DNA of 64,000 bases, taken from NCBI GenBank assembly GCA_000349905.1, contig KB722761.1, positions 428,904-492,903 of the forward strand. The letters run 5' to 3'. Position 1 is the first letter of the stretch. Each line of letters starts with the position of its first letter. Source of the DNA: Volvariella volvacea V23. Its lineage: Eukaryota > Basidiomycota > Agaricomycetes > Agaricales > Pluteaceae. The notes under the pieces were generated by a model. It saw only the letters and a program-made list of their open reading frames with translations, had not been told where the DNA came from and did no database searches. Below are positions 27,163 through 62,645 of this stretch, one piece after another. A program made the position numbers and the translations under genes.

Positions 27163-28500
27163 TCAGTCTGCACGGAAACTACTGAAAGAAGGTATGTTCT
27201 TAATATCCCTCTCCACCTGTCCTTTCCAGACACGAAGAGGCTCCATCTCGTTAAATAAATCAATACATATGAAAGAGGGCATGCTAGCCAGGTTAAAGAG
27301 TGTATGACGAGGTGCAGACGCTATATCCCATAATTGCTGGAACTGGGTCCGGGCGCAGCCTCTCGCAATGCGTCCCATTATACTCGGCGCAGCGACTCAA
27401 CTTCTTGCTGGTCGGGTGCCTAGAAGATGTCAAAGCAGGTATAGAGGAAATAGCCTTGCGTGATAATGTTTGGAAATACTTCCAGTGACGGACCTGACCC
27501 ATTAGGTTTAAGATAATGAGATCCCTTGAGCCGGTCATCAAAAAAGAAAAATATACCCAGATCATAATAGCATCAGGTGTTAGTAAATATATGAAATCAG
27601 AAACGTCGGATTTTGATTTAAGTAACAGTATTGCGACTTGGTCAGCTAGGTTGCTATACCCATGCTTTGTTGAGTAAGCTAAAAGCCAATGAGGATGCGA
27701 AGACAGATAATCACTGGAAAATGTTATGAGTCGCTCTTTAGGGAAGTAGGCGAAACTCAATTACTTCATCAAGATTTTGCACAGTGCCATGGCTGCATAA
27801 ACTTGATACTTCTCTGCTGCTTCGGCAAGGTCATAGAGCTCATCGAATGGGAGCTTCTTCCAATCGGGGTGCTGGCGTGCGTATATGAATTGAAAAAAGA
27901 GCTCTAGAGTTGAGCCTTTCTCTGTAAGGTGAACCGCCTCACCCATAGTTGGCTGTGAAGCAAGAGGAAAGGCTCCGCAGCAGACTCCAAGTTTCCTTTT
28001 ATGGAGACGGAATACCATCCCATCCCTACTCATGATAAACATCTGCATCTGGGAAAGCAACTGAAGGATTTTCGTTGTCATTAGCCTACAACCACCATTG
28101 TAAGGACGATGACGTACAGAGGAGGGATTCCTGGCCGTATGGCAGTTTAAAAGCGACTTGATTTTTTGAGTGTATACATTATCTATATTGGTGTGTGAAG
28201 AGCCTAATATTCTCAATCGAATGCTGGGCATCATCTTTCCATGTTTTTAAAGCAACAGGCCAAGAGCATTGGGAGCAACCAAGCTGCTGTTTACCTTGCT
28301 TGGTTAGGAGGCCGTCAATAGGTTCAAGGTTGATGACTTTGTCGCTGATGCAAGCTCTTCAGAAATCCGCATTCGAGTTATCAGGCGAGAAACTGCAATG
28401 AGATGCTGAAAATGAGCAACCATATTGATATTTTCTCTACCAAGTTCCCGGAACACCTTGTGAAGAACCGGGTCCCAGGTTGCCTGCTGGGCCCGGGCGC
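27163..28500 (-). pseudogene. Twin-BTB copy 1, 5'-truncated relic
   Basis: BTB2 is well kept (27761-28050: VCCGAFPLASQPTMGEAVHL, FFQFIYARQHPDWKKL), as are the next helical exon (HPHWLLAYSTKHGYSNLADQ) and the final exon with a knuckle (CAEYNGTHC). The region upstream of BTB2 has GCSQCSWP but also an in-frame TGA where relatives read through (near 28366). BTB1 is not recognisable upstream of about 28500, where homology to the knuckle exon begins (TWDPVLHKVF). A frameshift near 27340 separates DPVPAIMG from the end region SAPRHTLFNLAS. The 5' limit is approximate. Confidence 0.7.
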
Positions 28501-28838
28501 GACAACCATCCTGAAGATGGCACGTGGATTGCCCTCGGCAACTTGCGAGATATCAGAAAGACGCTTATGGAATATCCCTGTTCCTATCTCAACAACAACG
28601 ATTAAGTGTATGCAGTATTCGCTTCACCACAATGACTCCCCCACCCCTTTGACGCCATATTTGCCATCTTGTTGAATCTTGGTGAGCCCACAGGGTCGTT
28701 CAACGGAAAGTCCCTTCCAGTGTCCGCATGTTGACGTGCTCAATGTTGGGTGGACAGCTATTAGCACATGCACGTTAAATTCCTTTGACTGCGCTCATTA
28801 CAAACTAGTAAGGACATGAAATGCCAAGCTCCAAAAAA

Positions 28839-30915
28839 TTAAAAGAAAGCACTAAAGGCAGGCGCATCCCTGACCTCCGTCTCCACTTGCCGTTTCCAAT
28901 TATCGAGGGGATTTTGGAGGTTTAAATCGATACCGTTGTAGCATTTCTTCAAAACAGTGCTCAAGTTGAATAGCGAATTTTCGAGGGGAAGATACTAACT
29001 CCTGCACAAGCGCTGGAATGGGGTCGGGGCGGGATGCCGCGCAATGACTCTTCTGGCATTCAGCACACGAGTCGAATTGCACACTCCAGTACCCGAGATC
29101 CTTTGAGGTTGGAGGAGGTAGGGAAGATATTGCTCTGCGAAATATGCTTTGATAGTGCTCCCAATAGCGAGCCTGACTGAGAGTGAGAAGACCGTTGTAA
29201 TAATCAAGATCAACAGCGTACCCAGGCAGCTATCGCATCAGGGGTGAGAATAAAAATGAAATCCATAAAAGCGATCTCGGACTTCATGAGACAGATTGCA
29301 GCCTGATCAGCTAGCTCATTGTAACCATGTCTTGATGAGTAATCCAGAATCCATTGAGGATGTGATGATATGTAGCGTCTAAAAGTAATTCAGCATTCCT
29401 CATGTAATTAGTTTGGGTTTTGCCTACTCCATTAAAACATTGCATAGTGACATGACGGTGTAGACTTCATACTTTTCTGCTGCTTCGGTGAGTAAGCGGA
29501 GATCCTCGAACTCGAGCTTTTTCCAATCAGGTTGCTGACGTGCATACATGAATTGGAATAAGAGTTCTAGGGTTGACGACCGTTCCGAGAGGTAAACAAC
29601 TTCGTCCATGGTTGGGTGAGAAGAAGGCGGGAAGGCCCCGCAGCAAACTTCAAGATGTTTCTTATGCAAATGAAATTTCATACCGTCTATACTCTGGATG
29701 ATGATATCTGCATCATCAAAAGTAACTGTAAGTATATTAGCCGCGCAATTCCCATGAAGCGAAGGGTACGAACTCACAGAGATGAGATACTAGATGCGAG
29801 TTTTCTGGGCTGCTTTTCTGGGCATCAATATGCTGCTCATAGGCACTGAAGGGGCGAATACTCTCTAGAGTGCGTCGAAACCCATCCAGCCATCCCCTAA
29901 CACACTCGGGCCAGGTACATGTAGGACATTTCTGAAGCCTACTATCATATTTCTGCAAGAGCTTCGAAAGGTGATCCAGGTTTATGGGTGTGCCAACAAG
30001 GGCAAGTTCTTGCAAAAGCTTTGCGTTTGAATTACTGGGCTGAAAATTGCAATGCTGTGGTCTCAGGGTCCGAGTCCGTGAAGCCACATGTCACCGACAT
30101 GTGAAATCCCACCAAAACGTGCGTGGAGCAGTTTTGAGGTAGGCAGAATGAAGATCATCCCACTGTATTCTGTAAGCAAACTACCTGCGTTGAGTTTTGA
30201 CATTCATTAAACCTCTGAATGGGGGAGTCCTTCCTCTTACCCACTGTGTGTACAGCGAAGGCGGCAGTACTGATAAAACATTCGACGTTTGGACGTCGGA
30301 TTGGATGACAAGGGGCGCGGTTTTATCGAGCAGTGGGACATCCTTAGCCTTTGCTGCGTAGCCCAAAGCTTGAAGAGGATGCAGATGTGAACGGTCCCTA
30401 TGAATGTCTGTCAAATCTTGCTATAGACCTAAACCAAGGCTTATACCTGATTTCTCTCACCCAGCCTGCCTTCGCCATCCATACATTATATTTATTGAGC
30501 AATTGAGTCACATCAACTATAGAGTCGAATGACCGCTGGGTAGATTGGAGAGAGTGGCGGAGTGGCCAAGAAACGAGAGGATAAAAGCAGTAGAAAAGTT
30601 CATCAAGCACTGCGCTTGGTTCTTGGAGAATGTACGCCCCATCTGCAGTCTCTTCACATTGTGCAGGAGGAAGTCCTTGGCTCAGGTGTGATATATGCGA
30701 CCTGTGCACTTTGTATGCGACGCCATCGCTGGATTGAAATGAAATATCTCCATCTAGAAAGTGGACTGGAGTCATCAGATTTAAAATTAGCAAGATTAAC
30801 AGTTTTTTGAGGCGCCTTAGAACAGAATTTACTCACATATTGGTGACCGTGGAGATGCTACAGGCAACGAAGGCTGTGGTGTAAGAGAATAAGTCAATGA
30901 TTCTGAAGCCGACAT
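28839..30915 (-). pseudogene. Twin-BTB copy 2, full length with two lesions
   Basis: The full seven-exon layout is visible. Exon 1 is 30837-30915, exon 2 (BTB1) 30447-30753 (307 nt) and exon 3 30241-30397 (157 nt). BTB2 follows around 29424-29720. Two lesions are seen. A TGA at 30091-30093 interrupts the knuckle exon just after FWWDFTCR; a CGA-to-TGA change would explain it. A one-base frameshift near 28990 lies between ALVQELVSS and SLFNLSTVL in the last exon. The restored end frame stops at 28839. Either lesion alone would truncate the protein. A TATA-like element (TATTTAAG on the minus strand) lies near 31005. Confidence 0.72.
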
Positions 30916-31142
30916 CGATAAAAACTGAGGCAAGAAGAATTGCTATCACGTTTAACGGAATTTTATATCTCACAGCGCAGTCAGCACGTGTGATCAGTGC
31001 AGTTGCTTAAATACCCTTTCTAATAATCTGAATCCGAGCGATAGCTACGATGGTAAAAATAAATAATCCTTCCATTTTAAGTGGGGATTGAACGAGCACA
31101 TACACCAAACACGCAAGCGTCCATACTACTATCCCTCAGTTG

Positions 31143-31690
31143 TTATAATATCAGCCCCTTCACCCTTCCATACACTACAACGCCATCCCCTGGTAATCGA
31201 ATAGACTGAATAGAATCACCTTGCCCATTCTTCCTCCACTTCTCAACCATATCCTTCGCCTCAACAGGTGATATATCACCAGCCACAGTCCCAACAGTAA
31301 TATGCAATCGTCGCTTTACCTCTTCTGTCAATCCCGACGCCAAAAATCCCTTCGCCTTCTTGACACCATCTTCTCCCACTCTCTCACCCTCCGCAGCCTC
31401 ATCAAACTCTACGTTTTCCACAGTCAACGCCATCACTCTGTCGTTCCAAAGAAGATGCTTAAGCGTAAGCTTAAATCGAGGTGCAGCCTCAAGTAAATGC
31501 AGAGCCTGAGACTGATCCCAGCACCCTTGTTCTTCCGGAAACGTTTTGATATGAACGAGCATAACATGTGGTCGTTTTGCAACCCTATCTTTCTCCTTGA
31601 GCAACTCCCAAAAGCTCTCATTGACCTTGCTAATCTTCAAATTCGCGAATTTCTTGCTGAGCTCGTCTCCATCTACGCCCCTGGTGGGTG
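31143..31690 (-). pseudogene. Duplicated 3' end of TRL1 (phosphodiesterase domain fragment)
   Basis: This frame is nearly identical to the last about 180 codons of TRL1 at 34280-34830, from DELSKKFANLKI to GRVKGLI plus stop. It carries only the 2H cyclic-phosphodiesterase domain, without ligase or kinase parts. Of the two catalytic motifs, the second (LHITVGT) is kept, but the first reads HVMLVH instead of HITLVH, losing the active-site Thr. The frame extends to 31754 with an ATG, but that part has no TRL1 similarity. It sits upstream of BTB copy 2 exactly as TRL1 sits upstream of copy 3, so it is the remnant of a tandem duplication. Confidence 0.85.
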
Positions 31691-31968
31691 TATTAATTTC
31701 GCAGAGCAAATACTTAATGAGAGGCACTATGGTCCCATTCCGTCTGTGTAGCAAGGAAGTACCTCATGCCATACTCACCCGTATCATTTCAGATTGCATT
31801 GGTAATTACCAGTTTTGCGGTGACAGAATGGCCGGATTAAGCAGTTTTCTGGCAGAGTGGCTGTCGTTGGGCATTTGTTTGGTGATCGCAAGCGGAGTAC
31901 AAACAAAAAATAGGCTACACTTAGATTTACTTCAGCCTGAGTGACGTATAACACGGTCTCCTAACACC

Positions 31969-34129
31969 CTACTTAGCTGAGCGGAAACTACTGAAAGATG
32001 GCATCTTCTGAATTTCCTGCTCCACACTGCTTCTCCAGGCGCGAAGGGGCTCTAGTATCTCTACCTTACTAAAAAGCCCAAAATTTAGGTAAGAATTCGT
32101 GGAGTTGCACTGTTGCAAAGTGGTATCCAAGTTAAATAGAGATTGTTCAGGGGCTGATCCCAAGGCACGTATTATCTGCAAGATCGGGTCAGGGTGAACC
32201 TTTTCGCAGTGAGGTTTCTTGCACTCATTGCAGCTGCTGGTGTAAGTTCTGCTGGTGCTAGTTCTACTAGGATTCAGCTGCTGTGCCGTCAAAGTAGGTA
32301 GGGAGGAAATAGCTCCGCGTAATAAAGTTTGGAAATTTTCCCAGTAGCGAGCCTGGTCCTTTAGACTCAACAAGAACACCCTTTAGCGGGGTAGTACAAA
32401 ACGTACCCATGTTATTACCGCATCGGGAGTCAGTTTATATATGAAATTGGATGCATCAAGTTGTGATTGGAGCAATCGTATCGCGGCCTGATCAGCTAAT
32501 TTATCATAGCCATGCTTAGTCGCATAGGCCAGGAGCTGATGAGGGTATGATTTCAAAAATTGCCTGAGAGGATATGAATATACAATCTCGCTGGGATGTA
32601 GGGGGATTCGGATTACTCACTCCAGCATGATTTTGCATAGGGCCATAGCCGTATAAACTTCGTACTTCTCTGCTGCCTCTGCGAGTGCATAGAGCTTATC
32701 GAATTTAAGCTCTTTCCAGTTCTGGTGGTGCTGACGTGCATATATAAATTGAAACAAGAGCTCCAGAGTGGATCCTGTTTCTGCGAGTTGTACCACCTCA
32801 CCCATGGTTGGTTGCGAAGAAGGGGGAAACGCCCCGCAACATATTTCAAGGTTTATCTTATGGATACAAAATATCACCGCATCACTACTCTGAATTGTAA
32901 TGTCTGCATCTGGAAAATTAACTGAAGTTTTCAGCGCGTTATTAGTTAGTAGTCATAAACATCTGTAAAAAACTGGAAGAAAGAACGTACAAAGAGTGGA
33001 TATACGGGTAGAGCACCGTATCAGACTTGGCGAGTTATTTTTTATATAGTGAGTGAAGGGAGCAACTCCATTAATAGAGGATTCGATAGTGGATATCCAA
33101 TTCTTTCTTATTGGCCAGTCGCACTGGGAGCAACGTGATCGGAGTTTTACTGACTTGCTAAGGAGGTCATTGATGTCCTTTAAACTAATGGCTTTGCTGC
33201 TGGAGGCGATCTCCCTTAGAAAGCTTGCGTTTGAATTGTCAGGCGAGAAGTTGCAGTGATCCAAGGACGTGTCCGCACGCGCAGAAAACGACATGGATGA
33301 GCCCGAATTGGAGGGGCAGTGTTTACAATTAAATTCCTGCCACCAAGTCCCTGGAACATTTTTAATCGCCTTGCGAAGGACAGAGTCCCAGGTAGTTTTG
33401 TAATGAAACTGGATCGGTTTAAGGACGACGAATGCTTTATTAGGATACAAGTGTCTCACCCAATTCGCGAGCCATGCAGGGGGAAGGGCTGATAGAACGT
33501 CTAAAGTGGGAACATTGGATTGAATTACTAACGGTGCAACTTGGTCGAGGATTGCCATATTAGAGGTTCTGGCCGCGTAGCTCAAGGATTCAAGAGGATG
33601 AAGAGATGCGCAGTCGCTATATCATGATTTGAATCGATATCAGATAGGTTGCACGGGTAAAAGAAGGGGGATTAGCGCTTAACCTGAGCTCCCGAGACCA
33701 ACTCGCCATTGCAGTCCATACATTATATCTCTCGAGCGCTTCAGCCACTGCAACAATGTCTTCGTATGGTAAATCACGGGGCATAAGGGAGGATCGACCG
33801 GAGGTGAAGGGATAGAGATAGGAGAAGAGTATGTTGAGAATACGACTAGGTTCAGAGAGTATATGTACCCCATCGCTGGCCATTTCGCATTCTGGAGGAG
33901 GTAGACCTCGACACAAATGATCTATATGTGCCCGATGCACTTTATATGCAACTCCATCGCTTGACTGAAAGGAAAGATCTCCATCAGGAAAGTAAACTAC
34001 CACCATACCACCATAGTTAGGTTGTGTATGCGGTGCAGTATAGCAAGTTTTTGACATACAGGTTGGCCCGGTTGGGGTTAAAGCACTATCGGTGGTGGAT
34101 GGCTCTACAGACATCGATGAAGTTGACAT
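31969..34129 (-). CDS. Twin-BTB protein, copy 3
   Basis: Seven exons, complement(31969..32352, 32407..32563, 32621..32921, 32991..33408, 33460..33616, 33684..33996, 34060..34129), give 599 aa. BTB1 is at about 24-128 (LSFQSSDGVAYKVHRAHI, GLPPPECEMASDGVHILSE). A helical segment ends in NW at 180. The knuckle exon has CKHC, then HCNF, then CSQC. BTB2 is at about 320-420 (ICCGAFPPSSQPTMGEV). A second helical segment and a last knuckle exon (CNECKKPHC) end RSSVEQEIQKMPSFSSF. BTB domains mediate dimerisation and Cul3 or transcription-factor contacts; the partner is unknown. Two introns (63 and 51 nt) are multiples of three without stops, so simple gene finders may read through them. Confidence 0.8.
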
Positions 34130-34279
34130 TTCGAACCCGGGTGGGTGTTAATTATATCTGATGGCACGTGCAGGTCTGCGCGAGTTCTTGATGAGCGCTT
34201 CTGTCGCTTCTGTTGTGAGGTGGCAATGAAGTATATACATGATGAACACATTCACTTGACTAACTACTGTTTTCTGTGA

Positions 34280-37059
34280 TCATGATATCAGCCCCTTCAC
34301 TCTCCCATACACTACAACGCCCTCTGGTAATCGAATAGACTGAATAGAATCACCTTGCCCATTCTTCCTCCACTTCTCAACCATATCCTTCGCCTCAACA
34401 GGTGATATATCACCAGCCGCAGTCCCAACAGTAATATGCAATCGTCGCTTTACCTCTTCCGTCAACCCCGACGCCAAAAACTCCTTCGCCTTCTTGACAC
34501 CATCTTCTCCCACTCTCTCACCCTCCGCAGCCTCATCAAACTCTACGTTTTCCACAGTCAACGCCATCACTCTGTCGTTCCAAAGAAGATGCTTAAGCGT
34601 AAGCTTAAATCGAGGTGCAGCCTCAAGTAAATGCAGAGCCTGAGACTGATCCCAGCACCTTTGTTCTTCCGGAAGCGTTTTGATATGAACAAGCGTAATA
34701 TGTGGTCGTTTTGCAACCCTATCTTTCTCCTTGAGCAACTCCCAAAAGCTCTCATCGGCTTTTCTAATCTTCAAATTCGCGAATTTCTTGCTGAGCTCGT
34801 CTTCATCTACGCCTCCCACAGTTCCCTCAGCATGTTGCGTCTTGGCCTGCTCAAAGACATCGTCCACAAACGTCCGAAGATCGAATTCGGGCAAAAATGC
34901 AAAGTACCGGATGGTTTCCTTCTTGCCCTTCGCTTTGATCTCTTGCCTTATTTTCGGTTCGTAGTTCTGTATAGATTTTAGGGCTTCCTGAATTTCGTCT
35001 TCCCCGGGCTTTTCCAACCCTAAGACCCCCCTCAAACCATCCACCGCCCTCTTAACCGCCTCTTCGAGGTCGTCAGTGAGCTCCATGTCGATAGTCGTAT
35101 CCACTTCGTCTCCCCCGAGCTCTTGTGTACTTTGTATAAACTGCCAAATCACGTCTTCGTGGGATTTGCCCTGTGTGTCAGCACGGAGTGTTTGATGCTT
35201 TTCTCCACGTCCAAGGATTCTGTCACAGCATATATTGTGCGCTTGGGCCGGTGGCATGGACGAAACTGAGGACGACCAATCAAGGGCAATCAGTTTAACA
35301 GGCGGATCGTAATTCTTTCGTGCGATCTCCCGCAATTGGTCGCGGTGTTGGCGCAAATGATTGTTCCTAAAGTCTCAAGTTGACGAGGAGAATATACTGG
35401 AAATGGTAGACACTTACTTATCAGCGATGACAACATCATATGTCTCGAGGAGGTTGGCGACGTTTTGGATGAAGACTGGAGCGGGTTTCTTCGCCTTAAC
35501 ATCATCACTTTGCGTGTGTCCGAATCCGAAAAGATGAGCAAGGGCAACTGAAACAGATGTTTTGCCTGTGTTGCAAGGTTAGAAGGCGAACAGGGGGTGT
35601 GAAGCGAACATACCGCATCCAGGTATAGCCACCGGTACAATGATGGCCTTAGAAACAGTAGTCTCTGTTCCTACATCGTCTGCGATGTGGGGTACAGGCG
35701 CTCCTTCCCCCTCTGTGGTGCTTAGCTCTTCCTTCCCACTTTCGGACTCCAACCACTTCAAGAACCTCTCCCTCGTCGCGATGATGCCCTTTCCCTTTTG
35801 ATAACCTTCGAATGCCTTGGGATTTTGCTTGATCTCCCGGATAACCCAGTTGACGTACACCTTCGTTTCCTTCCTCTTCATCTTACTTTTTGGTAGCTTA
35901 TTTGGGTTGAGTATCTGACCACTCGAGTGCTGGCTGAGTAGCGACTTCGTAACTTCTCTCCAGTCCCGATACATCATGTAAGGTTCATCAAACTTGACCT
36001 TGAAGAAGAACGTAGATCCAGGTGCGTACGGCGATGCATCACGCGAGCCCCTTCGCCCTTCTGGTGGTTTTGTAACATGAGTCCGCACCACGAACCCTTC
36101 CACCGCCTCCCCATTCCATTCACCTGTTTCAGCGCAGTGTTGAGTAAATTCGCGGACTTCATTGATGGTATTCAAAACGATAGAAGGGGTTTTGATGAAT
36201 CCCCACTGATCGGCAAAGGCATCTACTTCACCCTGCGACAGCGTCCTAAAGTGCTTTGAGCTTTCGTTCAGACCGTGTAAGTGCAGCCCCGTCTTCTCTG
36301 GCGGATATCCGAGTACGTGTTCCTCAAACGAATCATCACAGAGCTATATTGTGCATAAGAGGCGATTATATGCGTCAATTTCTGCGCATATATGCGTGAT
36401 TAGAGTAGAGCGTACCTCTGCAATTGCCGTTAGGTTGTTGTCCCAAAGCTGAGAAGCTAGATCCGCCTCCGTCTTCTCCTTTGCCTCGAGATATCTGCGT
36501 AGCCACATTTCGCCAGCCTGAGCGTGACTCATTTTGACACCCTCGACGGGCCCAACAGAGTGCTTTGAGGTGACCAAGAGTTTAGTGCGGGTCAATGCCG
36601 CGAAAAATATAATACACCCGTTGGATTTGAGCGTAAGGGTATATGGGGCAGCAGTGTGAGACTGAAGAGCAGCCCACTAAAAGAAAGGTTGAGAGAACAC
36701 TCGAGGATATCGCTGGTGACATCACTCACTGTCGTCCACGGAACTTCGCCGATGTTGAAGAACTTGTCGTACCCCCGAGCGACAATACGATATCTAGTCT
36801 CAGCCGGATTCTCCTCACCTCCTTCTCTCTCCCGCTTTTCCTGTGGCAACTCCATCGTAAACAGCCCGCGCGCGAGCGTTGGGAAGGGAGATGGAATGTC
36901 ATAGTACTTGAACTCGTTCATCTTCCAGCTGCGGACGACCATCGAAGGCTCCGCGGGCGCATTGTAAACAGACGAGCGAACGAGTTTTGGCGACTTCTTG
37001 GACAGTGCATGAAGCGATGCGATGAGCTTGGAGTCCTCTTCGTTGAACCTGGGGGGCAT
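34280..37059 (-). CDS. TRL1: Fungal tRNA ligase (ligase-kinase-phosphodiesterase)
   Basis: Five exons, complement(34280..35366, 35418..35565, 35614..36343, 36416..36676, 36730..37059), give 851 aa, close to yeast Trl1 (827). The adenylyltransferase domain carries the nucleotidyl-Lys motif LTLKSNGC (K127), preceded by YDKFFNIGE. The kinase domain has a P-loop IPGCGKTS (K442), split by an intron. The C-terminal 2H cyclic-phosphodiesterase domain has PHITLVH (H712) and LHITVGT (H800). Known role: it heals and seals exon halves after tRNA splicing and, in many fungi, HAC1 mRNA in the unfolded-protein response. The start MPPRFNEEDSK at 37059 was chosen. An upstream in-frame ATG at 37176 would add 39 residues of Ser/Thr/Arg-rich leader. 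Confidence 0.93.
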
Positions 37060-37500: not shown

Positions 37501-39608
37501 TCAAGCCATCATCCTCTTCACCTCCCAGCGTGCTTTTCCTTCCTTCTCGTGCCCATCTCTCGCCAAGATGATGAATTTGCCGGTTCCCTCCTCCCAGTGA
37601 TCCAGTCTTCTCAACTTCGGACACTTCCATGCAAGCATACCGGCAATCTTGTCATTTTCACGGTAACGGCTTCTTTCAGTCATAGATAACGTCGGATACG
37701 GCGTATTGGCAGCTATTTCAGCTATAGCAGACGCAGTGGTCTGCGGCGAAAGCTCATAGAAGAATTTGACACCCTGCAACACAGTCAGTTCCGGCAGAGT
37801 GGAGAGTAAGTTGACCCATTCAATCGCATTCGACACAGGCATGTTGGTTGGGACACGGTCTCTGGCTGGTTGATTTCCAAGTTTCTTGCCGACATCAAGC
37901 CAGGTTACGCCAGGGACGCATTCGATGACACGGCGGACGTCCTCCATATCCCTCCAACCCGTCATATGGACGCGTTTGAGTTGTCTGCCATAGCGCTTGA
38001 GGTTGCTGAGGAAGACCTCGTCCGCGTCAACTCCACCAAGAGTACGACCCGAAGCAAGACGGAACCCAGTAATAGTCTCGAGTGGGCGCGGGACTTCGCT
38101 GGGGCACTCGAGAATCGAGTTAGTAATGTCTCGACTAGCACATAGCTCCTTGAGACGAGGAAGAGTGTTCTTTGGGAGTGTGAGACGGCCAAATGTATTG
38201 CCAGTGGGGAGGGTGATATCGAGGTGAAGTACCTCCAAGTTGGAGTGAACAAAGAGGAACGACGATGCGAGTTCACCAAGACCCTGATTGGAGCAGCGGA
38301 CATTCATCAACGTAAGTGATGTCAGCTGGGGCCACCTGCTGAAGAAGATGTCATGCGCCATGGGACGTGCGTTTGCTGCTCCCCGCGGAGGGTAGTATGT
38401 TACGTCCAATGCCTTCAGATAGGGTATATCAGGGGTCCTCATCCACCGCCTGAACGACACTCACTTTCAAGTTGGGGCAGTGTTGCAGCATCTGGACTGC
38501 ATTGTCGAGGGTGGGTAAATTCACCGAACCATAGTTGTGCTGGGTCGATCTTACAGTGAATGATCTCATGGATGGCAGCTGATAATCTGCGATGAGCCTC
38601 GTGCTGAGATAGCTACCGAGATGTACTTACGATCATTTCCCTGAGGTCATCTGCTTCCCGACCCTCCTCTTCCTCCTCCAGGGCCTTAAATATCAAGTTG
38701 TCATTGATCTCTATCGATCTCAATGATTGACATTGCAACAACGTCGATCGTATATCCCAGATCGAGATCGGTGAGTGATTGCAGCCCCAGACAAACATAT
38801 CCAGCGCCGTCATCCTCGTCAAAGCGGCAACCAGATACCGCTCGTGCTTCTCATGATACGCCAATCCAACTTTGCTCCCGCTAACCCCCTCATCTGCACT
38901 AGTCGCCTCCGAGGATTCCTCCAAATCCGTATCCGACATTAAAATACCCTTCGGTACAACCTCCAACTCTCCGCTAACCCTCTCGTCCAGCACCTCCAAC
39001 CTCCTCACATTCCTAGCCAAAGATTTGTGCACAATAAGGTGATTCCAGACCCTGATAGAGCTAATCTTGCACTTGACAACGCGATAATTGAAATGCCTCG
39101 GGAACACAACATCGTACATCCTCTTGCACGACAACCCGAGTGCCAACAAATCCTTCTTCGAGTCCAAATGAAACGCGATAGCATCTAAAATCTCGGTAGG
39201 TTGAGAAGTGAGCGTCTTTCCGCGAGAGCTGCTCGGAGAAGTCCCAATAAAGGGCTCCACAATCCCGAGGAGATGGATGCTGAGCTTGTGTTCCCCGGGC
39301 GTGAGTTTGTACTGACAACCGCCCACCCGGGATGGCAAACTCCCCAGCAACTTGAGTATGACGTTGAACGCAGTGAACGGGTCCGTTCGATCGTACGAAT
39401 TGAGATTGGTGTCCACGGAGAACGGTGTCTTCCTAGGACGAGACTTGAGGATAGTGAGGGTCCCAGAAACGGGTTTAAGAGGCTTCTTGATAGCCGAGAA
39501 GGGCGTGACTGGTGTAGCAGCGAAGAGCGTCTCCCCTCCCGCTACATGAGCGGGGGTGTGGGCCTTGTGGCCCGACGACGACGGGCGCTTGGTAACGGGC
39601 TTCTTCAT
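37501..39608 (-). CDS. F-box/LRR-like protein with a probable frameshift
   Basis: Exon 1 (38631-39608, 326 codons) has a basic Ser/Pro-rich N terminus, then an F-box-like stretch LTSQPTEILDAIAFHL and LALGLSCKRMYDVVFPRHF. Leu-rich segments follow (RNVRLEVLD-like, SLRSIEINDNLIF). Exon 2 starts at 38578 (LPSMRSFTVRS) and reads to HCPNLK near 38465. The continuing homologous frame (SFRRWMRTPDIPYLKALDV, on to 37501) is offset by one base. The junction sequence AAAGTGAGTG looks like a 4-base tandem duplication. No intron of workable size fits there. Either a recent lesion or a sequence error is present. With it, the protein would stop after about 376 residues; without it, about 690 aa. Confidence 0.65.
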
Positions 39609-40119
39609 GGTGTGCTAAAGCAACGCTAAGAAAGCTGTTATCGAGATCACGCTCGTCCTTGATTCCGTCCGCCATCAGTCCGTGGGATTCTGAATTGGCT
39701 ATGCAGTCAGGGGTGATTTTTCTTTAACTGGCACTTGATTGTAGACTTGTCTGCATCAGCCAAACCTCTTCACCTTATCCGGCCGTACCATTGGCGTAGT
39801 GAACAATCCATGGAGAGAGTCGTTCATGGGGCTGAAGGAAAGACGTCGCGTTAAACGCGTCGAGCGCGCCCGGCCGCGATTGGGGGACCATGGCCACGTG
39901 GTCGCGAAAGTCTCTTTAGGAGTGAAACTCCTTCAAATCCGACTCCAGGCTGGGTGAGTCCTCCCGGTCTTCTCTCCCTGGCATGCTGTCGTTGTCGAGA
40001 TATTGACTTTGTAGCTGGCGGAATTTATGGCTACACAAGTCCATTCCGCTTTGTCTTACCCAGAGCAGAGACGTATGAGCTCTTTATGCACCTAAATTCA
40101 AGTCAACGCTAACGCGACA

Positions 40120-51100: not shown

Positions 51101-51848
51101 CAGCGTCGGTCCAGGACTTGTGGGCCGCGGAGGATACTGAACGATCGATGTCATGAGCAGCCATGCACCAAGTGCCGAGTATTGTTTCAAGTTGTCTCGA
51201 AGTTGCCAGTTCTTGAAGGAAGAAGATAATCTGATCCCGGACTTGTGGAATGCGTAGTAGAGCAGCATGGAGTATGGCACTGAGTTGTCTCACACGACGC
51301 GAAGGATGAATGAACAGCGCTGGCAGATGATGATACTACTCCGGGTCTTAGTTCTAATCCAACATAGCCCGAGGATGACCACATACCCATACAGGTAGCA
51401 TCTCTACCAAAGTGTTCGCCACAGTCTGCATCTCATAATCCTCTTCGTCATCTCCAGCCTCCTTCGCCTTCAAACATCTCTCCACCCATCCACCCATCAA
51501 ATCCTCCAATGCCTTAATCTTCGTCACATAAGCCTTCTTCCCAAAGCTACGTAGCACAACCAACAGATCCGGTGGCAACTTCCTCCATAGTCCCGTGCTC
51601 TCCAATGGATCCGGCTGTACAGGTTGAGGCTTCACGGGGGGTATGTAGATCTTCTGCCTCGGTTCCTTCATGTTCCCTTTCCCTCCTTTCGACTTGTCCT
51701 TCTTGTTCTTGCCAGCATTGGACTTGGGATCTTTGGGATCGAAATCTGACGGTGAGAGCCCTGAAGCTATTGCTGCTGCCGCTGCGGCGCGCTTGGCATG
51801 CTTCTTACGCGTTCCGGATGAAGCAGACGATTTGTTGGACTTGGGCAT
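45106..51848 (-). CDS. LTN1: Listerin, E3 ubiquitin ligase of ribosome quality control
   Basis: A long multi-exon gene. Exon 1 is 51387-51848 (MPKSNKSSASSGTRKKHAKR, then LWRKLPPDLLVVLRSFGKK, typical of the Listerin N terminus). Exon 2 starts at 51335 (YHHLPALFIHPSRRVRQLSA). The middle is long HEAT-like helical sequence. The final three exons are 45354-45442, 45215-45299 and 45106-45162. They encode the C-terminal RING variant: CAIC, CKTC, RFHAGC and CPLC, ending CRSNII and TAA. A 49-nt intron near 50650-50700 joins TIRWLL to ENVDIKSLDV. I did not fix all middle exon borders. Known role: it ubiquitylates nascent chains stalled on 60S subunits, placing Lys48 chains with Rqc2 and Cdc48. It is single copy and probably ancestral at this locus. 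Confidence 0.92.
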
Positions 51849-52577
51849 AATTCGTGTCTAGTTACTGCGATGCGGTAGACGATGATATTCTAGGTCGAGA
51901 ACAATAACGGCGAAGGTGACAATGAAGATTAGGACAGGCAAAGATGGTATTAGTTGTGGATGAGCCCGACGCCGTAGAATGTGGGTGTATGCGCAAGAAC
52001 CTTTTGTTCGGTCCCGGAGTGCTTTTAGGAGATTAGATTGAGGAGTCATCAGCGTCATCAGTTGATGACGTACTCAGCTTAGTCAGCTGATCCCTGGCCT
52101 TGGCGTCGCTTGCTCTTGAAGAACCGTTCACCAGACCCCTCTGCGCTACGAAAAAGCTCATAGTTTCCCAAATCTTTGATTTCATGTGCTCGTCTGCCAC
52201 TTCTTCATCAGATTCACAATTTTTTGCTTGCTATTAGATGTAGACCCAATCATGAATCAAGACAAAGAGCATTCCTGGGAGTCTGGGACCCATTGCAACC
52301 CTTTTGACGCTGTCAATTTACTTTAAGCTTCCCGGACTAGAGTGGAGGAGATATTTGCGGCAAATCCAGTAACTTAAAACTGGTTGGCTAGGGTATGTAT
52401 CAATAATGCCCCGAATACTTATAGGGTCCTTCCACGATTGCCGATGCAGATAAGATCGACTGTGAGTTGTCTGCGCATTGCACGTTCATCAATCAGAAGC
52501 AGCCTAGGTCATACTAACTTGGGCCAGCTGTTTTAGGCAGCATTCATCAAAGAACTATCTAGCGTAGTCCCACGTCT
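51849..52577. other. Divergent intergenic region
   Basis: Between LTN1 (minus) and BTB copy 6 (plus). It should contain both promoters. No gene-like frame is seen. Confidence 0.45.
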
Positions 52578-54743
52578 ATGTCTGTTGTTGAAATTACTTC
52601 GCCCGTACCCACAATGGTGGATCCTGCGAAAGACCAGCGTTCAACACAGTTTTGTACGTGAAAATCCCAATTGCTTCGCTAGGCCCTACTTAGAAGACGC
52701 GCACAGATTTCCCGGGGGAGGCCTACATTTCTGTCCAGTCGAGTGATGGAGTTGTATACAAAATTCATAAACATCTCACAGAGCTTTATTGCCAAGGACT
52801 TCCTCCAACCGATTCCCCCATGACTCCTGATGGGATCTATATTCTATCCGAGCCAAGTTCTATCCTAGAGAAAGTGCTCTATTACCTTTATCCCCAGACT
52901 TGGGGCAATCCCTTATCAACCGACCGATCCTTTGACGAGGTTGTGAGCATAACTAGAGCAGTTGAGAAATATCAAGTAACTCTAGCACGGGAAGCCTGGC
53001 TTCAGAAGATAAGGTGAGTTTTTGTCGGTTATTCAGGCCCCCGTTAATGACTTTGCCATACAGAGATACTGCCGTCCAATCACCGGTTGCAGCATTGGCC
53101 TATGCTGCACAATCTCGAAATCAGACCCTCTTTAACCATATTGCGCCGACGGTAGTACAATCGGATACGCCATTACACCAAGTATTGTTAGCACTTCCAC
53201 AAATAACATGGAGTGAATGGGTATGTGCCAGCGTCATTTCCTAGTCATAAAATGAATACTTTCTAGATCTACTATCGCGAAAAGTGGAACACTGCAACGC
53301 GATCAGCCCTGAATAACATTCCCGCGTATGAGGAGTGGCAATCCAGCAAGTGTGCCGACTGTGATAAATATCATTGCTCACGCATACCTGCCATCGGAAC
53401 GATTCAACGACCGCAGCTCGACGTTTTCAGGAAGCTTGCATCTAGTGGGAATTTTGCTGACTTGAAAGCAATCGATGATTACCTCGAGCAACTGACAACG
53501 AAGACTTGTAAAACCTACTCCTATGGTAACAAACCTTATCAGCTCCAAAACTGGAGAAATGCTCTTGATCGATCGATTGAGGCAATACCCTTTCCACTCG
53601 TAACCCCAGGGCATCAAGAATCATCAGGTGTTTCTGCAACATCCCGGACATCAAGCTTATGTGAGTGTGTCCCTAGCTATTTGGCCGAACTAAGCGACTA
53701 ACAGGTGGATAAGTTCGCTTTGACGATGCAGATATAATAATTTGTAGCGCAGATGGAGTAGAGTTTCAACTTCACAAACGGAACCTAGAGGTCTGTTGCG
53801 GGGCATTTCCCCCCTCCTCGCATCCTACGATGGGCGAAGTCGTACATCTTACGGAATCTGGTGCAACACTGGAGATGCTATTCCAGTTCGTATACTCGCG
53901 ACAACAGCCGGATTGGGAGGCGCTGGAGTTTTCGAAACTTCAAGATCTCGCAGAAGCTGTAGAGAAGTACTAGATACATACGGCAATGTATCTATGCAAA
54001 ATTTTGATGAAGTGGGTGGCCGTTCTTCCCAAGGTTGGAAACTTAACTAATGGATGCTGTTAGACGCTTTGTTCAATCTCATCCTGAAGCTTTATTTACC
54101 TATGCAACAAAGCACGGATATAAAGACCTGGCAGATCAAACCGCTCTACTGTTACTCAAATCAGGTGGGAGAGCGGAAAGTCTGGTGCCTCTGCTCACAC
54201 CCAATGCAGTTCTAGCCTGGGTAATTATCCTGACATTCTCCGCATAGCAATACTTGTACTTAACATACATATTAATAGACCCGCTATCTAGATCACGTTT
54301 GTAGTGTATGCAACAAGGCTATCTCTACTTCCCCAACTATTTTTCCGCAACCTGAGCCACCAACTCCACCACCCCAAGTATCGAATGATCCGTCCACCGG
54401 AAGCACAAAAAGACGACATCTCAAGCACCCAACTCGTTCATACCAGACCCCGCAACCCCAGTCTCCAACAGAGACGCGCTGCGACTATTGCGGTGGTCCT
54501 CACTGTACTGGCGAGAGTCTTAGTTGGGACAGCTCCAATGAACACTCGACGTTTCTTTCTCCGCTCTTGAAAGAGCTAGTTGCATCACCATGTGGAGGAC
54601 TATTCAAGTTTGATACGCTATCAGAGCAGCTGAGCAAACAGATGGCCAGTTACACTAGTGGGTCTCGAGAAGCGTTTAGGAAGTGGAGGGAAGGGGTCAT
54701 CGGGGACATTCGAAACATTCCTGCATTTAGGACGTTTTTATAG
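52578..54743 (+). pseudogene. Twin-BTB copy 6, one nonsense codon
   Basis: Exons join(52578..52653, 52707..53013, 53064..53220, 53267..53660, 53714..54011, 54064..54220, 54279..54743) are all in phase and would give 617 aa, except for one TAG at 53971-53973. It falls where copies 7 and 8 encode EKYQV, so a single C-to-T change in a Gln codon explains it. Truncation at residue 397 removes the end of BTB2 and everything after it. Knuckles: CADCDKYHC, and in the last exon CDYCGGPHC. The last exon is about 100 nt longer than in relatives, with a Pro/Ser/Thr-rich insert. The rest looks unmutated, so the lesion is recent, an assembly error, or tolerated. Confidence 0.75.
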
Positions 54744-55097: not shown

Positions 55098-57156
55098 ATG
55101 ACCACACCCACGCTCGACGCCACTTCACCTGCACCCACTATGACAGATCCTGCAGATGAACATACAGCTAAAACTCAAACCGGTGGGCGTAAATTTCCAC
55201 GAAATACTTCATCTTGATATGAATTGAGCGCATATATGCAGGCTCTCTAGAGGAGACTATCTTAGTTCGGTCAAGCGATGGGGTTGTGTACAAAATCCAC
55301 AAACTCCTCTTGACACTGCACTGTCAGGGACTTCCTCCTCCGAATTGTCCCACGACCTCAGATGGGGTCTTCATCCTCCTCGAGCCAAGTTCTATCCTTG
55401 AGAGAATGCTTTATTATCTGTACCCTCGTGCCTGGCCAAACCCTTTGCTGTCCAAGCTCTCATTGGAGGAGATTCTGGCTACAATTAGAGCACTTGATAA
55501 ATATCATATTACGCTAGCAAGGGAGCCATGGCTCAAGAGAGTCAGGTACGACTTCGTCATGCTATTCATGCTCTCATCAGCAAACTCGTTCCACGCAACA
55601 GAGATTCTGCCATCCAGTCACCCATTGCGGCTCTAGTATATGCTGCAGACTGTCGGAATCAAGACCTTGTTAGCCATGTTGCACCACTCGTGGTTCAATC
55701 GAACTTGGCGTTGCATAAAGTTCTGTTAGGGCTCCCGCAAGCAGTTTGGTTGGAATGGGTAGGCATCGGGATTGCCCTTGTACATAAACTGACTGCCAGT
55801 GCTCCCTAGTTTTTATACCACGATCGATGGAACGGCGTGTTCCGTGCAGCCCTAAGTACTTTCCCCATGCAAGCCTACACGCTGACAAATCAAATAATTT
55901 GTGGCAGTTGTAGGCAACATCATTGCTTGTCTCGGCCGGTAGATTTGGTGCCCCAGTCCCAGCTCCAACTCCTGAGGAAGCTTGGTCCCAGTAGTAATTT
56001 TGCCGATTCAAAGCGCATTGATGACGACCTCGAGAAACTTGCAACGACAGTCTGCAGCACCTGCTCACATGGTTCCATTCCTCTTCAACTGCAAATTTGG
56101 AGAAGGTATTTCCAGCGAGCAATTCGAGGCATACCTCCACCACTTCTCAACCTTACCCTTCACACATCTAAAACTGCTGCACCATCGTCTACACCATCGA
56201 AGTTATGTGAGTTATTTCGCTTTGGGCTAGCATTTTCAATTTATACGCATATTAGTCAACTTTAGCGATGCAGACATCATAATCCGTAGCAAGGATGGCA
56301 TTGAATTTCATGTCCACAAGAAGATTTTAGAAGCTTGCTGTCATGCATTTCCACCTTCTTCACACCCTACAATGGGCGAGGTTGTACATCTCACGGAATC
56401 GGGTTCAACTTTGGAGATGCTTTTTCAATTCATATATTCTCTACAGCAGCCAAACTGGGAGGAGTTAACGCTCTCAAAACTTTGGAAACTCGCCGAAGCT
56501 GCAGAGAAGTATCAAGTTCACATGGCGACATATTTGTTGAAGATCCTGATGACGTAAGGAGATATACTTGGTTTTAATTATGCGATTATTCCGAAACTGA
56601 TGGAATGTACAGACGCTTTGTTCCAACACATCCAGCTATCATTTTTGCCTATGCAACGAAACACGGATATCACGACCTTGCAGATGAAGTCGCCCCATTT
56701 TTGCTCAGATCTGGCATCAGCGTAGGTGATTTGGTACCTTTACTCATACCCAACACAGTTTTGGCATGGGTAATTCCAGTGCTCTCTCTACAAGCATAGC
56801 CGGACTCAACAATACTGTAGGCCAGATACTTGGAGTACGTCTGGAGTTTATGCGACAAGGCTATTTATACACTGCCTACCATCCCAAATCATACAACTTC
56901 AACGAAGAAATGCGCGTATTGCGGTTATTATCACTGTAATCCCAGCAGCTCTAGCGATTTGTCAAACTCTCTTGCTGCCCTCATAAAGGAGATGGTCGGG
57001 TCACCCGAAAAAGGAATATTCAAGTTCAGTGCCCTTTCTCAGGAGCTGAGTAATAGTATTAATCACACAGACGAATCTCGAGGGGCATTCAAGAAGTGGA
57101 GAGATGAAATCAACCGAGATATTGAAAATATGCCTGCGTTTAGGAAATTCTTATGA
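55098..57156 (+). CDS. Twin-BTB protein, copy 7 (intact reference copy)
   Basis: Exons join(55098..55182, 55242..55545, 55602..55758, 55810..56206, 56256..56553, 56613..56769, 56821..57156) give 577 aa with no interruption. BTB1 is at about 29-130 (ILVRSSDGVVYKIHKLLL, GLPPPNCPTTSDGVFILLE). A helical segment at 130-182 ends WLEW. The first knuckle exon at 183-315 has CGSCRQHHC and CSTC, then LQIWRRYFQRAIRGIPPP. BTB2 is at about 315-414 (AFPPSSHPTMGEVVHLTE, SLQQPNWEEL). A second helical segment ends VLAW at 466. The second knuckle exon has CAYCGYYHC and ends AFKKWRDEINRDIENMPAF. The two halves align with each other. No signal peptide or membrane segment is seen. The partner and function are unknown. 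Confidence 0.85.
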
Positions 57157-57714
57157 AGGAGGCGAAGTTCGTGTCGTGTCTTTTTCTCCTGTACAGTTCT
57201 TGTAGGATGTGCGTGTGGAGCCATTCTCAAGCAGATCGGGTTGCCTGAGATACATTACACAATGCCACGAGGTGGAGTTGCACCCTTACTAACCAATTGA
57301 CATTTTGGTTGACATCGGTAGTTATAACGCCATCGTTTTTTGACCTTGGTTTCACCATCCTGGTACTTACGAATTCTTGTCGATCCCATTCGTGGGGCAC
57401 TTGCACGCTTCCGTTTCACGACAGGATAATGGTGGGTTGGGCACCCCATTACTGATAGACTAATATATCGGTTTGGTATTATGCAATTGACTGAGATATA
57501 TACGGTTAGAAGGAGGCGATAAACGGGATATCCGAATTCGCTCACGGTTCAGGTCTTCGGATCGTGCCGTAGTTATGCCAAGTTGTTGATTCAGCGTTCT
57601 GCGCGATGTCTGCGTGCTACGCAGTCCTACCAATCACAGGCCGTTTACGGCATTGAGAAGCCAATCAATTATACCTATAAAGAACCCTCAAACACATCGT
57701 AATCCCGCAGTTCG
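57157..57714. other. Intergenic with promoter of copy 8
   Basis: No coding signal. The last 60 nt hold a CCAAT box and a TATA-like element (separate entry). Confidence 0.45.
57661..57682 (+). promoter_or_regulatory. CCAAT box and TATA-like element of copy 8
   Basis: CCAAT at 57661 is followed by CCTATAAAG around 57674-57682, about 35-55 nt before the ATG at 57715. A second CCAAT occurs near 57630. Confidence 0.45.
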
Positions 57715-59793
57715 ATGGCTGAGTCTGATACCACTCCATCCATGCCCACAGCAGCGGCTTCTGCAGATGATCCTGGGTCTGCAACCCAAATGTGTACGTG
57801 CGAGCCTTTAATCAGTGCCTAGTAAAATATATCCTGAGAGATATATCGACAGCTTTCTCAGAGAATGCCGTTGTATTCATTCAGTCAAACGATGGACTCG
57901 TGTATAAGGTCCACAAACTTCTTTTGGAGTTGCAATGCCCGGGACTTCCTCCTCCCGGCTGCCCTACCACGCCTGACGGGACGCTTCTCCTTCCAGAGTC
58001 GAGTTATGTTCTTAAGAAAGTATTGTACTACCTTTACCCTTCTCTGTTCCCCAAGCCGTCGCCATCTAGTCTTTCATTCGATGAAATCTTGGACATCAAC
58101 AAGGCAATGAGGAAATATAATGTCTTAGGAGTGCAGGATATTTGGTTCAAAGCACTCTGGTGCGTCGTTCCTCTGCTATTATTTGTAATCATCCCTTTGA
58201 CAATGACGAAAACATGTCAGGGATTCAGCCGTTCAATCTCCCGTTTCAGCGCTTGCTTATGCTGCTGAGATACAAAACCAGGAACTCTTCAACCACGTCA
58301 CGCCGTTAGCGATACAGTCGAGTTCTTCCTTACCCGACGCATTATCGGCGCTTCCACAACGAATATGGGCCCAATGGGTAAGCATTATTAGCTCTAAGGA
58401 GCAGTGTTTTGAGCATTGTACAGTTTTGTTATCACAGCAAGTGGAACCATGCATGTCGAACAGCGATACATTCTTTTCCAACGCTCACGCACCCAGGCAG
58501 CCAGGAATGGAGCCACTGCAGTGATTGTGGTTTAAAGCATTGCCAATACTGCCCTCTAACGAATATCCCAAAGCTTCTCTGGAAGCTCAGTTCCAGTGGC
58601 AGCTTTATCAACCTGAAGACCATTGACGATTATTTCCAGGATATGAAAAAAGAAGTCTGTCAGACGTGTTCACACAGTTACAACCCATCTCAACTGCAAA
58701 CGTGGAGAAATGAACTTCAACAATCAATTCAGAATATTCCTCTTCCTGACCTTACCTTGAACGCTCCAACTACAGGGGTCGTTGTAGATTCGACCCGGAC
58801 ATCAAGCCTATGTGCGTCTTCCTTTGTGTCATCTGTACAGCACGACTCATTATTCCATGAAGTCAGATTCAGTGATGCCGATATTACAATCCGTAGTGCA
58901 GATGGAGTCAAGTTTCATCTTCACAAGAAACACCTCGAAATGGGTTGCGATGCATTCCCTCCATCTGCCCATCCCACGATGGGCGAAGTCGTAGATCTCA
59001 CGGAATCTGCCTCGACATTGGAGATGCTTTTCCAATTTTTATATGCGCGACAACAGCCAGACTGGGAGGGATTGCCGTTCTCGGAGCTTTATGACCTTGC
59101 AGAGGCTGCTGAGAAATATCAGGTGTACACCGCAATGCGTGTGTGCAATATCCTAATGAAGTGGGTGAACTTTCTCGATCACATAAACTCAAATTGAAAT
59201 TTATGAGCATTGACAGACGTTTCACCAAATCCAATACTGGCAGCGTCTTTGCCTATGCAACGAAACATGGCTATGGCGATCTTGCCGATGCAATCGCCCC
59301 CTTGTTTCTTGTATCCGACGTTAGCGTGGTGTGTGATTTAGCACCCCGACTTGCACCTAATGTGATAATGGCATGGGTAAGGCCACATTCTTCTGTACAA
59401 ATGACCATGACCAAACTATACCAGGCCCAATATTTGGAGCACGTTCGTGTGGTATGTAATAAGGCAATTTCCACTTCTCCGGAACTTCACGCGACCCGAC
59501 AACCAAACTCGAACTATTCATACCGGTCATCCTATTCGTCGGATGGGCCTTGTCAGAGTTGTGGTTCCAACTGCAAACGTCCGTCTTATAGGCCAGCTCT
59601 GTCCGCTCTGTTAAAAGAGATGGTTGCTTCGCCTGAAGGGGGACTACTCAAGTTTTCAGATTCATCCCAGCGGCTGAGCGATCACTTGAAGAGTGGAAAT
59701 TTCACCAGTATCTCTCAAGAGGCATTCAGAAAGTGGAGGGAGGATATCAACGCAGATATTCAAAATATCCGTGCCTTCAAGACGTTCCTATGA
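57715..59793 (+). CDS. Twin-BTB protein, copy 8
   Basis: Exons join(57715..57793, 57853..58159, 58221..58377, 58424..58811, 58863..59160, 59217..59376, 59425..59793) give 585 aa, intact. BTB1 is at about 27-129 (VFIQSNDGLVYKVHKLLL, GLPPPGCPTTPDGTLLLPE). Knuckle 1 is CSDCGLKHCQYC with CQTC. BTB2 is at about 311-410 (AFPPSAHPTMGEVVDLTE, YARQQPDWEGLPF). Knuckle 2 is the variant CQSCGSNCKR, followed by LLKEMVASPEGGLLKFSD and the conserved end KWREDINADIQNIRAFKTFL. The intron between 58811 and 58863 is 51 nt with no stop, so read-through would add 17 residues without breaking the frame. It is closest to copy 9. Confidence 0.85.
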
Positions 59794-60576
59794 AGGGCTT
59801 GTGTTGGTGTTTTCTGTGAAGTCACGTAGTAAATGCCAGGGATGCGTAGTCATTTGGTGTTGAATTGAGCTTCCTTGTTCTGCACGGTCGTGGTGCTGCA
59901 ACGGGTGTAGTGATTGTAGTCGCGATGGTTCCTTGCTTTGTAAGCCTGTCGTGCGCTCGCGCGTGAGCTCAGCTCTTACTTTGGCTCAACCACACACTTG
60001 CGGACGCCCCTCTGGGGCTTTTCAAAATCAAAATCTCTTTAAGATACGGACACTGTTGTATGCGCATCGCCAACTGTGGCGGCCTCAGTCTCATTGAACC
60101 CAGTACTTTGGATTGCCTCTTTCGCGTCAACGGAGGTGTCGACCGCAGCCATCTGAGGTACTCCGGCAGAGATCTGTTCCAGAGTGCTGATTCCCCAATG
60201 CGGTGTTCAATGTTACCCAGTCTGTCTGTAAGCTTCTCTCCTTTTTGGCAGTAGTCAGGATAAAATCAACCGATCGGGAATAGGAACTTTAGTCAGGCGT
60301 CGATGACGTTACGGAACATGTGAACTCTGTCCCGATTGCGATCGTATGTCAATATCCAAATCGAGTACTGCTTCTTCTGAAGGTGTGTGTTATTGAAAGA
60401 GAGACAACAGAATGTATAACCGTTATCATTACAGATAAGCAATCAGGTGGCATTGTCTGCGCGTTGGACGGGTCCTGTTGATTAGAAGGTTCGCAAACTG
60501 CACCAAGTCCTGAGATCACGCATGTACACTTACAAGAGGGTTACCTCACATTACTTCAAGTCGTAATCAAATCTCT
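59794..60576. other. Intergenic, no gene seen
   Basis: 783 bases between copies 8 and 9. No motif is recognised beyond presumed 3' end and promoter functions. Confidence 0.45.
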
Positions 60577-62645
60577 ATGGCCAAACTCGCCACCATGCTA
60601 CCCGTTCTTAATGAGACAGATTCTGAAACCCAAGCCTGTACGTCTAAGTGGATACCAATGGGTACTCTATTGAGGTGTATACTCAGCGACCGGTATAGCT
60701 CTCCCTCAGGATGCCTTTGTCTCGATCCAGTCAAGCGATGGGTTAGCCTATAAAGTCCACAAATTGATCTTGACAATGCAATGTCCAGGACTTCCTCCCC
60801 CTGATTGCCCTATGACGCCTGATGGTACTTTTCTCCTTCCGGAGTCGGGTTCAATCCTTAAGAAATTATTCTACTATCTTTACCCCCATTTGTGTCCCAA
60901 GCCATCTCCATCCGATCTCTCATTTGATGAGATACTGGACATACACCGAGCGGTCGAGAGATATAAGGTAGCAGTAGCGCAGGAATTCTGGTTTAAAGTA
61001 CTCTGGTACGACCTCCGTTATTCCAGTTCACGAATCTCTTAATGATACCAAAACAACAAACAGGGATCGTTCAATTCAGGCTCCTGTTGCGGCGCTAGCT
61101 TATGCTGCTGAAGTACAAAATCAGGAGCTCTTCAACCATGCTGCGCCGTTAGCAGTGCAATCGAATGTGTCGTTACCCGATATGTTATCAGCACTTCCAC
61201 AACGATTGTGGGTGCAATGGGTAAGTATACCAGCTTTGTTAAAGCACGATATTAAGTACTATGCAGTTCTGTTATCACAGCAGATGGAACCAGACATTCC
61301 GAAGAGCAATAAATTCCATTCCAATGCGTAGATATAATACAAGCCCCAACCCGGATGAATGGAGTCATTGCAATGATTGCGGCCTATCTCACTGCTCATC
61401 TTGTTTTCTGACGAGCTCGCAGAAGCTCCTCTGGAAGCTTGGCTCTGACGGTAGTTTCACCAACCTAAAGATCGCTGATGACTACCTTGAACAGACGAAA
61501 GGAAACGCTTGTGACAAGTGCTCAATTGCCTCTGTTTCTTCTCAGCTGCAAACCTGGAGAACCGATCTCCAGCAATCAATCCAAGCTATTCCTCTTCCCG
61601 ACCTCGCCCTTCACTCTCCAAACAATGGAGTTGGTGTAGCTTCAACTCAGATGTCAAACTTATGTAGGCTTTTCTTCGGCTGAATAGCTAAATGTTGCTT
61701 ACATATCTCAGTCAGTTTTAGTGACGCCGACATCATAATCCGTAGCGTCGACGGAGTTGAGTTTCACCTTCATAAGAAAAACCTTGAAGTCTGTTGTGGC
61801 GCATTCCCTCCTTCCTCTCATCCCACCATGGGCGAAGTCGTGCACCTCACGGAATTAGGTTCAACTCTAGAAACGCTTTTTCAATTCATATATGCGCGAC
61901 AACAGCCAAAATGGGAGGGACTGAAATTCTCAGAGCTTTACAACCTCGCAGAAGCGGCGGAGAAGTATGAGGTTTACACCGCAATGCGCGTGTGCAATAT
62001 GCTGATGCAGTGCGTAAATACTCCTTATCAGTATATCACGAGCACAACTAACAGATGCTGTAAGGCGTTTTATTCAGTCTAATCCTGCGAGCGTCTTTGC
62101 CTACGCAATTAAGCATGGATACGATGACCTTGCAGATGCCACTACTCCACTGTTTAACGCATCAGATGCGAAGGTAGTGTGCGATCTAGCACCCCGACTT
62201 ACGCCTAATGCGGTAATGGCGTGGGTGAGTCAATATTCCCTGTTCACGGTAATCATAACTAATGCATATTATATCAGGCCCGATACCTCGAGCACATTCG
62301 TATTCTATGTAACAAGGCATATCTACCTCACCAGACCTCTATGCAACGCGACCATCAGACTACCCCTACTCATACTCGTCATCCTACTCATCGAGTGGGA
62401 CCTGTCCCAGTTGTGGTTCTAATTGCAATAGGTCGCCTTACGATTTTACGCTTTCCTCTCTATTGAAAGAGCTTATCGCCTCGCCTGAGGGAGGGCTACG
62501 CACGTTTGACGAATCATCCCAGAGGTTGATCGACTATTTAAATCAGACTCGCTTCGTGGAACAGTCTAATGCAGCACTCAGGTCTTGGAGGGAAAGTACC
62601 ATTCGAGACATTCAAAGCATGCCTGAATTTAAAACTTTTTTGTAA
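60577..62645 (+). CDS. Twin-BTB protein, copy 9, C terminus frameshifted
   Basis: Exons join(60577..60637, 60699..61005, 61064..61220, 61267..61663, 61712..62009, 62065..62224, 62278..62645). Both BTB domains and the first knuckle (CNDCGLSHCSSC, CDKC) are intact: SIQSSDGLAYKVHKLIL, GLPPPDCPMTPDGTFLLPE; AFPPSSHPTMGEVVHLTE. In the last exon the sequence after ILCNKA lacks one base relative to copy 8 (near 62320). The reading frame then stops at 62464-62466, giving about 522 aa. The original frame continues open with CPSCGSNCNR and RSWRESTIRDIQSMPEFKTF to a TAA at 62645. It is either a C-terminally altered gene, a young pseudogene or a one-base sequence error. Confidence 0.75.

Follow-up and report, generated by a model that had tools for sequence, protein, structure and literature searches.

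Twin-BTB genes in a nine-copy array of Volvariella volvacea, with a candidate origin in the head-to-tail fusion of single-BTB genes

Do the repeated genes in this part of the Volvariella volvacea V23 genome encode proteins with two BTB domains, and if so, how did this arrangement arise and does its repetition mark a recognition system? The window, meaning the whole 64,000-nucleotide stretch analyzed here (G000:C26:428904-492903, in an assembly of 35.39 Mb and 54 contigs), contains, by spliced protein-to-DNA alignment, nine genes or remnants of genes within 27.2-62.6 kb that are related to one another. Both BTB units lie across the spliced exons in eight of the nine, copy 1 lacking the first BTB, so that the nine-copy twin-BTB array of the original prediction, made from the sequence alone, is confirmed. 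Models were built with our own spliced aligner, run over every copy; it permits only GT-AG introns, and the GT-AG borders are therefore partly a matter of construction. Copies 1-3 lie on the minus strand and copies 4-9 on the plus strand:

27175 to 28715, minus strand: copy 1, damaged; first BTB gone, several frameshifts and a stop
28845 to 30918, minus strand: copy 2, damaged; both BTB units, 5′ end uncertain
31969 to 34129, minus strand: copy 3, uninterrupted; 6 exons, model without intron 1
40088 to 42058, plus strand: copy 4, damaged; 3 stops and 3 frameshifts
42614 to 44766, plus strand: copy 5, uninterrupted except for an N gap; model without intron 1
52614 to 54743, plus strand: copy 6; 7 exons, in-frame stop in exon 5
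55098 to 57156, plus strand: copy 7, uninterrupted; 576 aa, 7 exons
57715 to 59793, plus strand: copy 8, uninterrupted; 585 aa, 7 exons
57853 to 58811, plus strand: copy 8 unit a (exons 2-4), comprising BTB, helical exon and knuckle with two CxxC
58863 to 59793, plus strand: copy 8 unit b (exons 5-7), comprising BTB, helical exon and knuckle with one CxxC
60577 to 62645, plus strand: copy 9; 7 exons as in copy 8, frameshift in the last exon

The predicted count of four intact copies, one of them gapped, is recovered (copies 3, 7 and 8, and copy 5 apart from 100 N at 43856-43955, an assembly gap within its second BTB that protein P0010 of strain WC 439 covers), but the remainder divides into two copies with a single lesion (6 and 9) and three damaged ones (1, 2 and 4), rather than one nearly intact and four damaged. 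Copy 2 has two lesions: its first knuckle region contains an in-frame stop, and its last exon a 1-nt shift. The exons of copy 8 (57715-57793, 57853-58159, 58221-58377, 58424-58811, 58863-59160, 59217-59376 and 59425-59793) are separated by six introns of 46-61 nt each. Using the two halves of copy 8 as queries in a whole-genome search, we recovered the remaining copies exon by exon; the best non-self matches were copy 9 unit b (E = 4.0e-48) and copy 9 unit a (E = 7.0e-44), and E values down to this level argue that the relatedness is not due to chance. Two further twin copies lie outside the array, at G000:C1:3927070-3929080 (one frameshift) and G000:C38:193811-195745 (many lesions), and are referred to below as C1 and C38.

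The predicted succession of BTB, helical segment and Cys/His knuckle, twice in one gene, is seen directly in the spliced models. Domain searches, which had been proposed as a check, gave a divided answer, in that Pfam finds at most one BTB per protein, always in the second half, yet the BTB fold is predicted in both halves. The latter result, which bears out the proposed structure prediction of each half, was obtained with P0004, the WC 439 ortholog of copy 7, and places units a and b alike in the BTB/POZ superfamily. In this predicted structure, unit b aligns past the BTB and through the following helices with the SPOP BTB/3-box and with KBTBD2, and thus has the 3-box/BACK helices after its BTB. 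As to a possible pairing of the two BTBs within one chain (a pseudo-dimer), alignment with the tethered POZ pair 4u2m extends over 94 residues only. In the knuckles, CxxC is invariant in all eight alignment rows (five b and three a), but C-x2-C-x3-H-C is complete in five of eight b halves. Weak matches to Rab5 GEF and FYVE were taken as chance.

Intron positions connect the two halves with each other and with a simpler gene. Phases are 1 before the BTB, 2 after it and 0 before the knuckle exon in both units, and the phase-2 and phase-0 introns of copy 8 units a and b fall at identical aligned columns. Exceptions are copies 3 and 5, modeled without intron 1, and two introns in another phase in damaged copies (the C38 a/b junction intron and one in copy 4). 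In V. volvacea's own single-BTB gene, located at C26:385 kb, these three introns recur at corresponding positions, a comparison made within this species against one well-modeled gene (of nine single-BTB loci modeled, only L029 is full and undamaged, the others being too partial for use). Profiles of the twin halves and of the single-unit proteins align over 249 of 269 columns, and the halves share with an unnamed agaricomycete single-BTB knuckle family the full-length BTB, helical and Cys-rich order and, as compared within V. volvacea, introns in phases 1, 2 and 0.

Alignment of the halves drew on 8 of the 11 copies (minus copies 1, 4 and C38), and the tree had 45 rows (omitting copy 1 a, WC 439 P0001-P0004, P0006-P0008 and P0010, as well as P0018, P0023-P0025 and P0028). 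The a halves group without exception in one clade and the b halves in a second, and therefore a single head-to-tail fusion most likely preceded the duplications. Branching is broadly alike in the two clades, both of which unite copies 8 and 9, and C1 with P0005; among the a halves copy 2 pairs with copy 3, whereas copy 3 b instead groups weakly with copy 1 b. The halves are homologous, carry introns as in the single-BTB gene, and were duplicated as one gene. By sequence comparison, each half reproduces in full a single-BTB gene present in other mushrooms, consisting of BTB, BACK-like helices and a Cys-rich C-terminus.

Such single-unit proteins, as yet unnamed, are P0012 of Mycena amicta (253 aa) and P0026 of Tricholomella constricta (315 aa), which are homologous to each half over nearly the full length, with one unit against two in the twin proteins. 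Both end in the motif IPKFSTFL, and a similar IPSFSYFL closes copy 5 unit a. The profile search returned 21 proteins, of which V. volvacea contributed 5 and other named fungi 10 (including two Rhizoctonia matches at E of about 1e-3), with 6 further ones; P0026 came from a separate search, where six of the nine matches listed were from V. volvacea. When 15 non-Volvariella proteins were read by eye (P0025 excluded), two BTBs were found only in an Athelia sp. TMB protein (HWV62_6351, P0009), and a Pfam scan of eight of the profile-search proteins likewise found two only there. Unlike the V. volvacea twin lineage, the units of P0009 form one clade with an Athelia psychrophila single-BTB protein (support 100/99), suggesting that it was doubled separately or that its gene model joins two genes. 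This twin lineage was not seen outside V. volvacea among the matches listed in three protein searches, which score only candidates sharing 5-residue words (capped at about 8000 candidates in two of the three), making the restriction to this species provisional. Athelia, Tricholomella and Plicaturopsis belong to the class Agaricomycetes, as do the other named fungi matched.

Among known systems, the BTB-BACK Cul3 adaptors (SPOP, KBTBD2 and KEAP1) combine a BTB with following helices, as unit b does; the twin proteins differ in having two units and Cys-rich ends, and no Kelch or MATH family is among their Pfam matches (copy 8 at E≤5; P0003 and P0004 at E≤1). RhoBTB proteins also have two BTB domains in one chain (PMC8305917), but differ by a Rho GTPase domain, and no GTPase family was matched at the same thresholds. 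The main text of the V. volvacea genome paper does not use the word BTB (PMC3602538). A fungal twin-BTB family does not appear as a topic in the titles and opening parts of abstracts listed by text searches of open PMC, a collection that leaves subscription journals mostly outside its coverage. The suggestion that the layout is undescribed therefore holds insofar as no named family was matched in the searches, but the layout is less strange than supposed, as its halves copy a known single-BTB gene.

On balance we lean toward the following account. Two neighboring copies of an agaricomycete single-BTB gene, with exons for leader, BTB, BACK-like helices and Cys-rich C-terminus, would have fused head to tail, and the fused gene would then have been amplified by birth-and-death duplication. 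The most likely function would be that of a Cul3 ubiquitin ligase substrate adaptor or a BTB scaffold: the second BTB, the best-conserved segment, may bind Cul3 or a partner BTB, the diverged first BTB may serve dimerization or scaffolding, and the variable Cys-rich ends, perhaps zinc-binding, may hold the client. A Cul3 gene is present in the V. volvacea genome. Several observations weigh against this account. Pfam reports a BTB above cut-off in none of four tested a halves, and only one array exon (copy 7 unit b) is among the 16 matches of a genome-wide Pfam BTB exon search. The alignment behind the predicted structure is thin for unit a, with single-unit rows covering unit b only. The C1 b knuckle lacks the His and the last Cys, and those of copies 8 b and 9 b lack the His. 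The WC 439 annotation lists the b half of copy 5 as a protein by itself (P0010, 296 aa). As for function, many proteins with a BTB fold do not bind Cul3, and the same structure-match list includes Skp1 and KCTD at similar Z.

These last points bear on a somewhat unlikely alternative, namely that the twin proteins are BTB scaffolds or transcription-related dimerizers that make no use of Cul3. A fold match alone fails to separate Cul3 adaptors from KCTD, MIZ1, PLZF and Skp1, and KBTBD4 (E = 0.001) and MIZ1 (E = 0.014) lie close together in a profile search of solved chains; however, unit b aligns through its post-BTB helices to SPOP and KBTBD2 chains that were solved as Cul3 adaptors. At the opposite extreme, the twin proteins could be self-contained two-armed ubiquitin ligase receptors, with one BTB recruiting Cul3, the other pairing with a sister copy, and the two variable Cys-rich ends selecting copy-specific clients, which we regard as a long shot.

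The original prediction also took the array for a fast-evolving recognition family, and a diversifying self/non-self or pathogen recognition system, with variability kept by selection, would be consistent with the mixture of live and dead members, with knuckle exons that vary more than any other part (30-35% mean identity, compared with 69% for the b BTB exon), and with three twin loci (the array, C1 and C38), none of which lies farther than about 37 kb from a contig end. The proposed check of nonsynonymous to synonymous substitution rates (dN/dS, omega) across copies speaks against it. In a codon analysis of the same eight copies, with one omega per partition, omega ranged from 0.10 to 0.36 and stayed under 0.4 in each of nine partitions, which overlap (0.25 overall, 0.11 in the b BTB exon, 0.36 in the a knuckle exon and 0.28 in the b knuckle exon; 0.10-0.32 with the four uninterrupted copies), which shows no gene-wide positive selection and points instead to weaker constraint toward the ends. 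Whole-gene dS was at least 1.2 wherever a pair gave a value, and for most pairs it was either saturated or could not be defined; copies 8 and 9, which form the closest pair, gave 1.5 or 1.2 by two methods.

Comparison with strain WC 439, whose annotation holds orthologs of copies 5-9, likewise argues against such a system. Each of these orthologs is listed with a longest contig of 29,144, and they therefore probably share one contig. In the protein search, copy 8 matched a WC 439 protein at 97% identity across 98% of its length. Where models are comparable, the strains differ little, by 2 of 576 residues in copy 7, 3 of 576 in copy 8, 7 of 605 in copy 6, 1 of 367 in copy 3 and 1 of 449 in C1; the 8 of 259 differences in copy 5 all fall at the N gap, and those in copy 9 (13 of 460) and C38 (33 of 419) mostly where the models take different frames or splices. 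The copy 6 ortholog, P0003, is uninterrupted, and the predicted protein P0002 also diverges around the last-exon frameshift of copy 9, which suggests a lesion common to both strains. With low omega, high dS and few strain differences, we consider a recognition system doubtful.

Least of all do we credit the idea that each copy is two adjacent single-BTB genes joined by the model, with no twin protein: the GT-AG restriction of our models, the separate annotation of P0010, the resemblance of the copy 5 unit a ending to the P0012 and P0026 termini, and a stop in seven of eight copies if the joining intron is retained, which makes a short a-only product possible, would all fit it, but it is disfavored by the joining intron and by the absence of an in-frame ATG from the 150 nt preceding the second BTB in all eight copies, and the WC 439 annotation treats a and b as one protein in P0001, P0003 and P0004 while the two clades branch broadly alike.

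The array is interrupted by a tRNA ligase gene, a weak F-box-like frame and an Ltn1-like gene. The last, related to a ribosome quality control E3, occupies 45446-51857 between copies 5 and 6, with Pfam support for its 3′ exon; F-box-like frames lie at 6609-7145 and 38616-39614, with Pfam support below cut-off. Between copies 2 and 3 lies a truncated tRNA ligase 3′ end (31145-31679), a recent partial duplication that matches 34282-34813 of the tRNA ligase gene adjoining copy 3 at 95.9% DNA identity; its joint duplication with copies 2 and 3 is not supported, as these copies differ by a dN of 0.43. The last base of the window is the end of contig 26, only 1.4 kb beyond copy 9 (62640-64000), and the array may therefore extend past the assembly. 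C1 lies about 22 kb and C38 about 7 kb from a contig end; the after-the-fact chance of such placement for all three twin loci is about 0.0014, an upper-bound estimate. A subtelomeric array was nevertheless rejected as an explanation, since exact (TTAGGG)4 was not found in the assembly and breakage of contigs at repeats is an equally likely reason. More distantly related BTB genes form a cluster at G000:C29:337-356 kb, likewise near a contig end.

Together, these data describe a family much of which annotation misses, Pfam having reported a first BTB in none of the four a halves scanned. Under the fusion account, the locus would offer a clean case of tandem-neighbor gene fusion made visible by intron positions, in which the single-unit form persists while the fused form was amplified. 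Were the twin proteins indeed two-armed receptors, the array would constitute a receptor repertoire controlling protein destruction in the mushroom.
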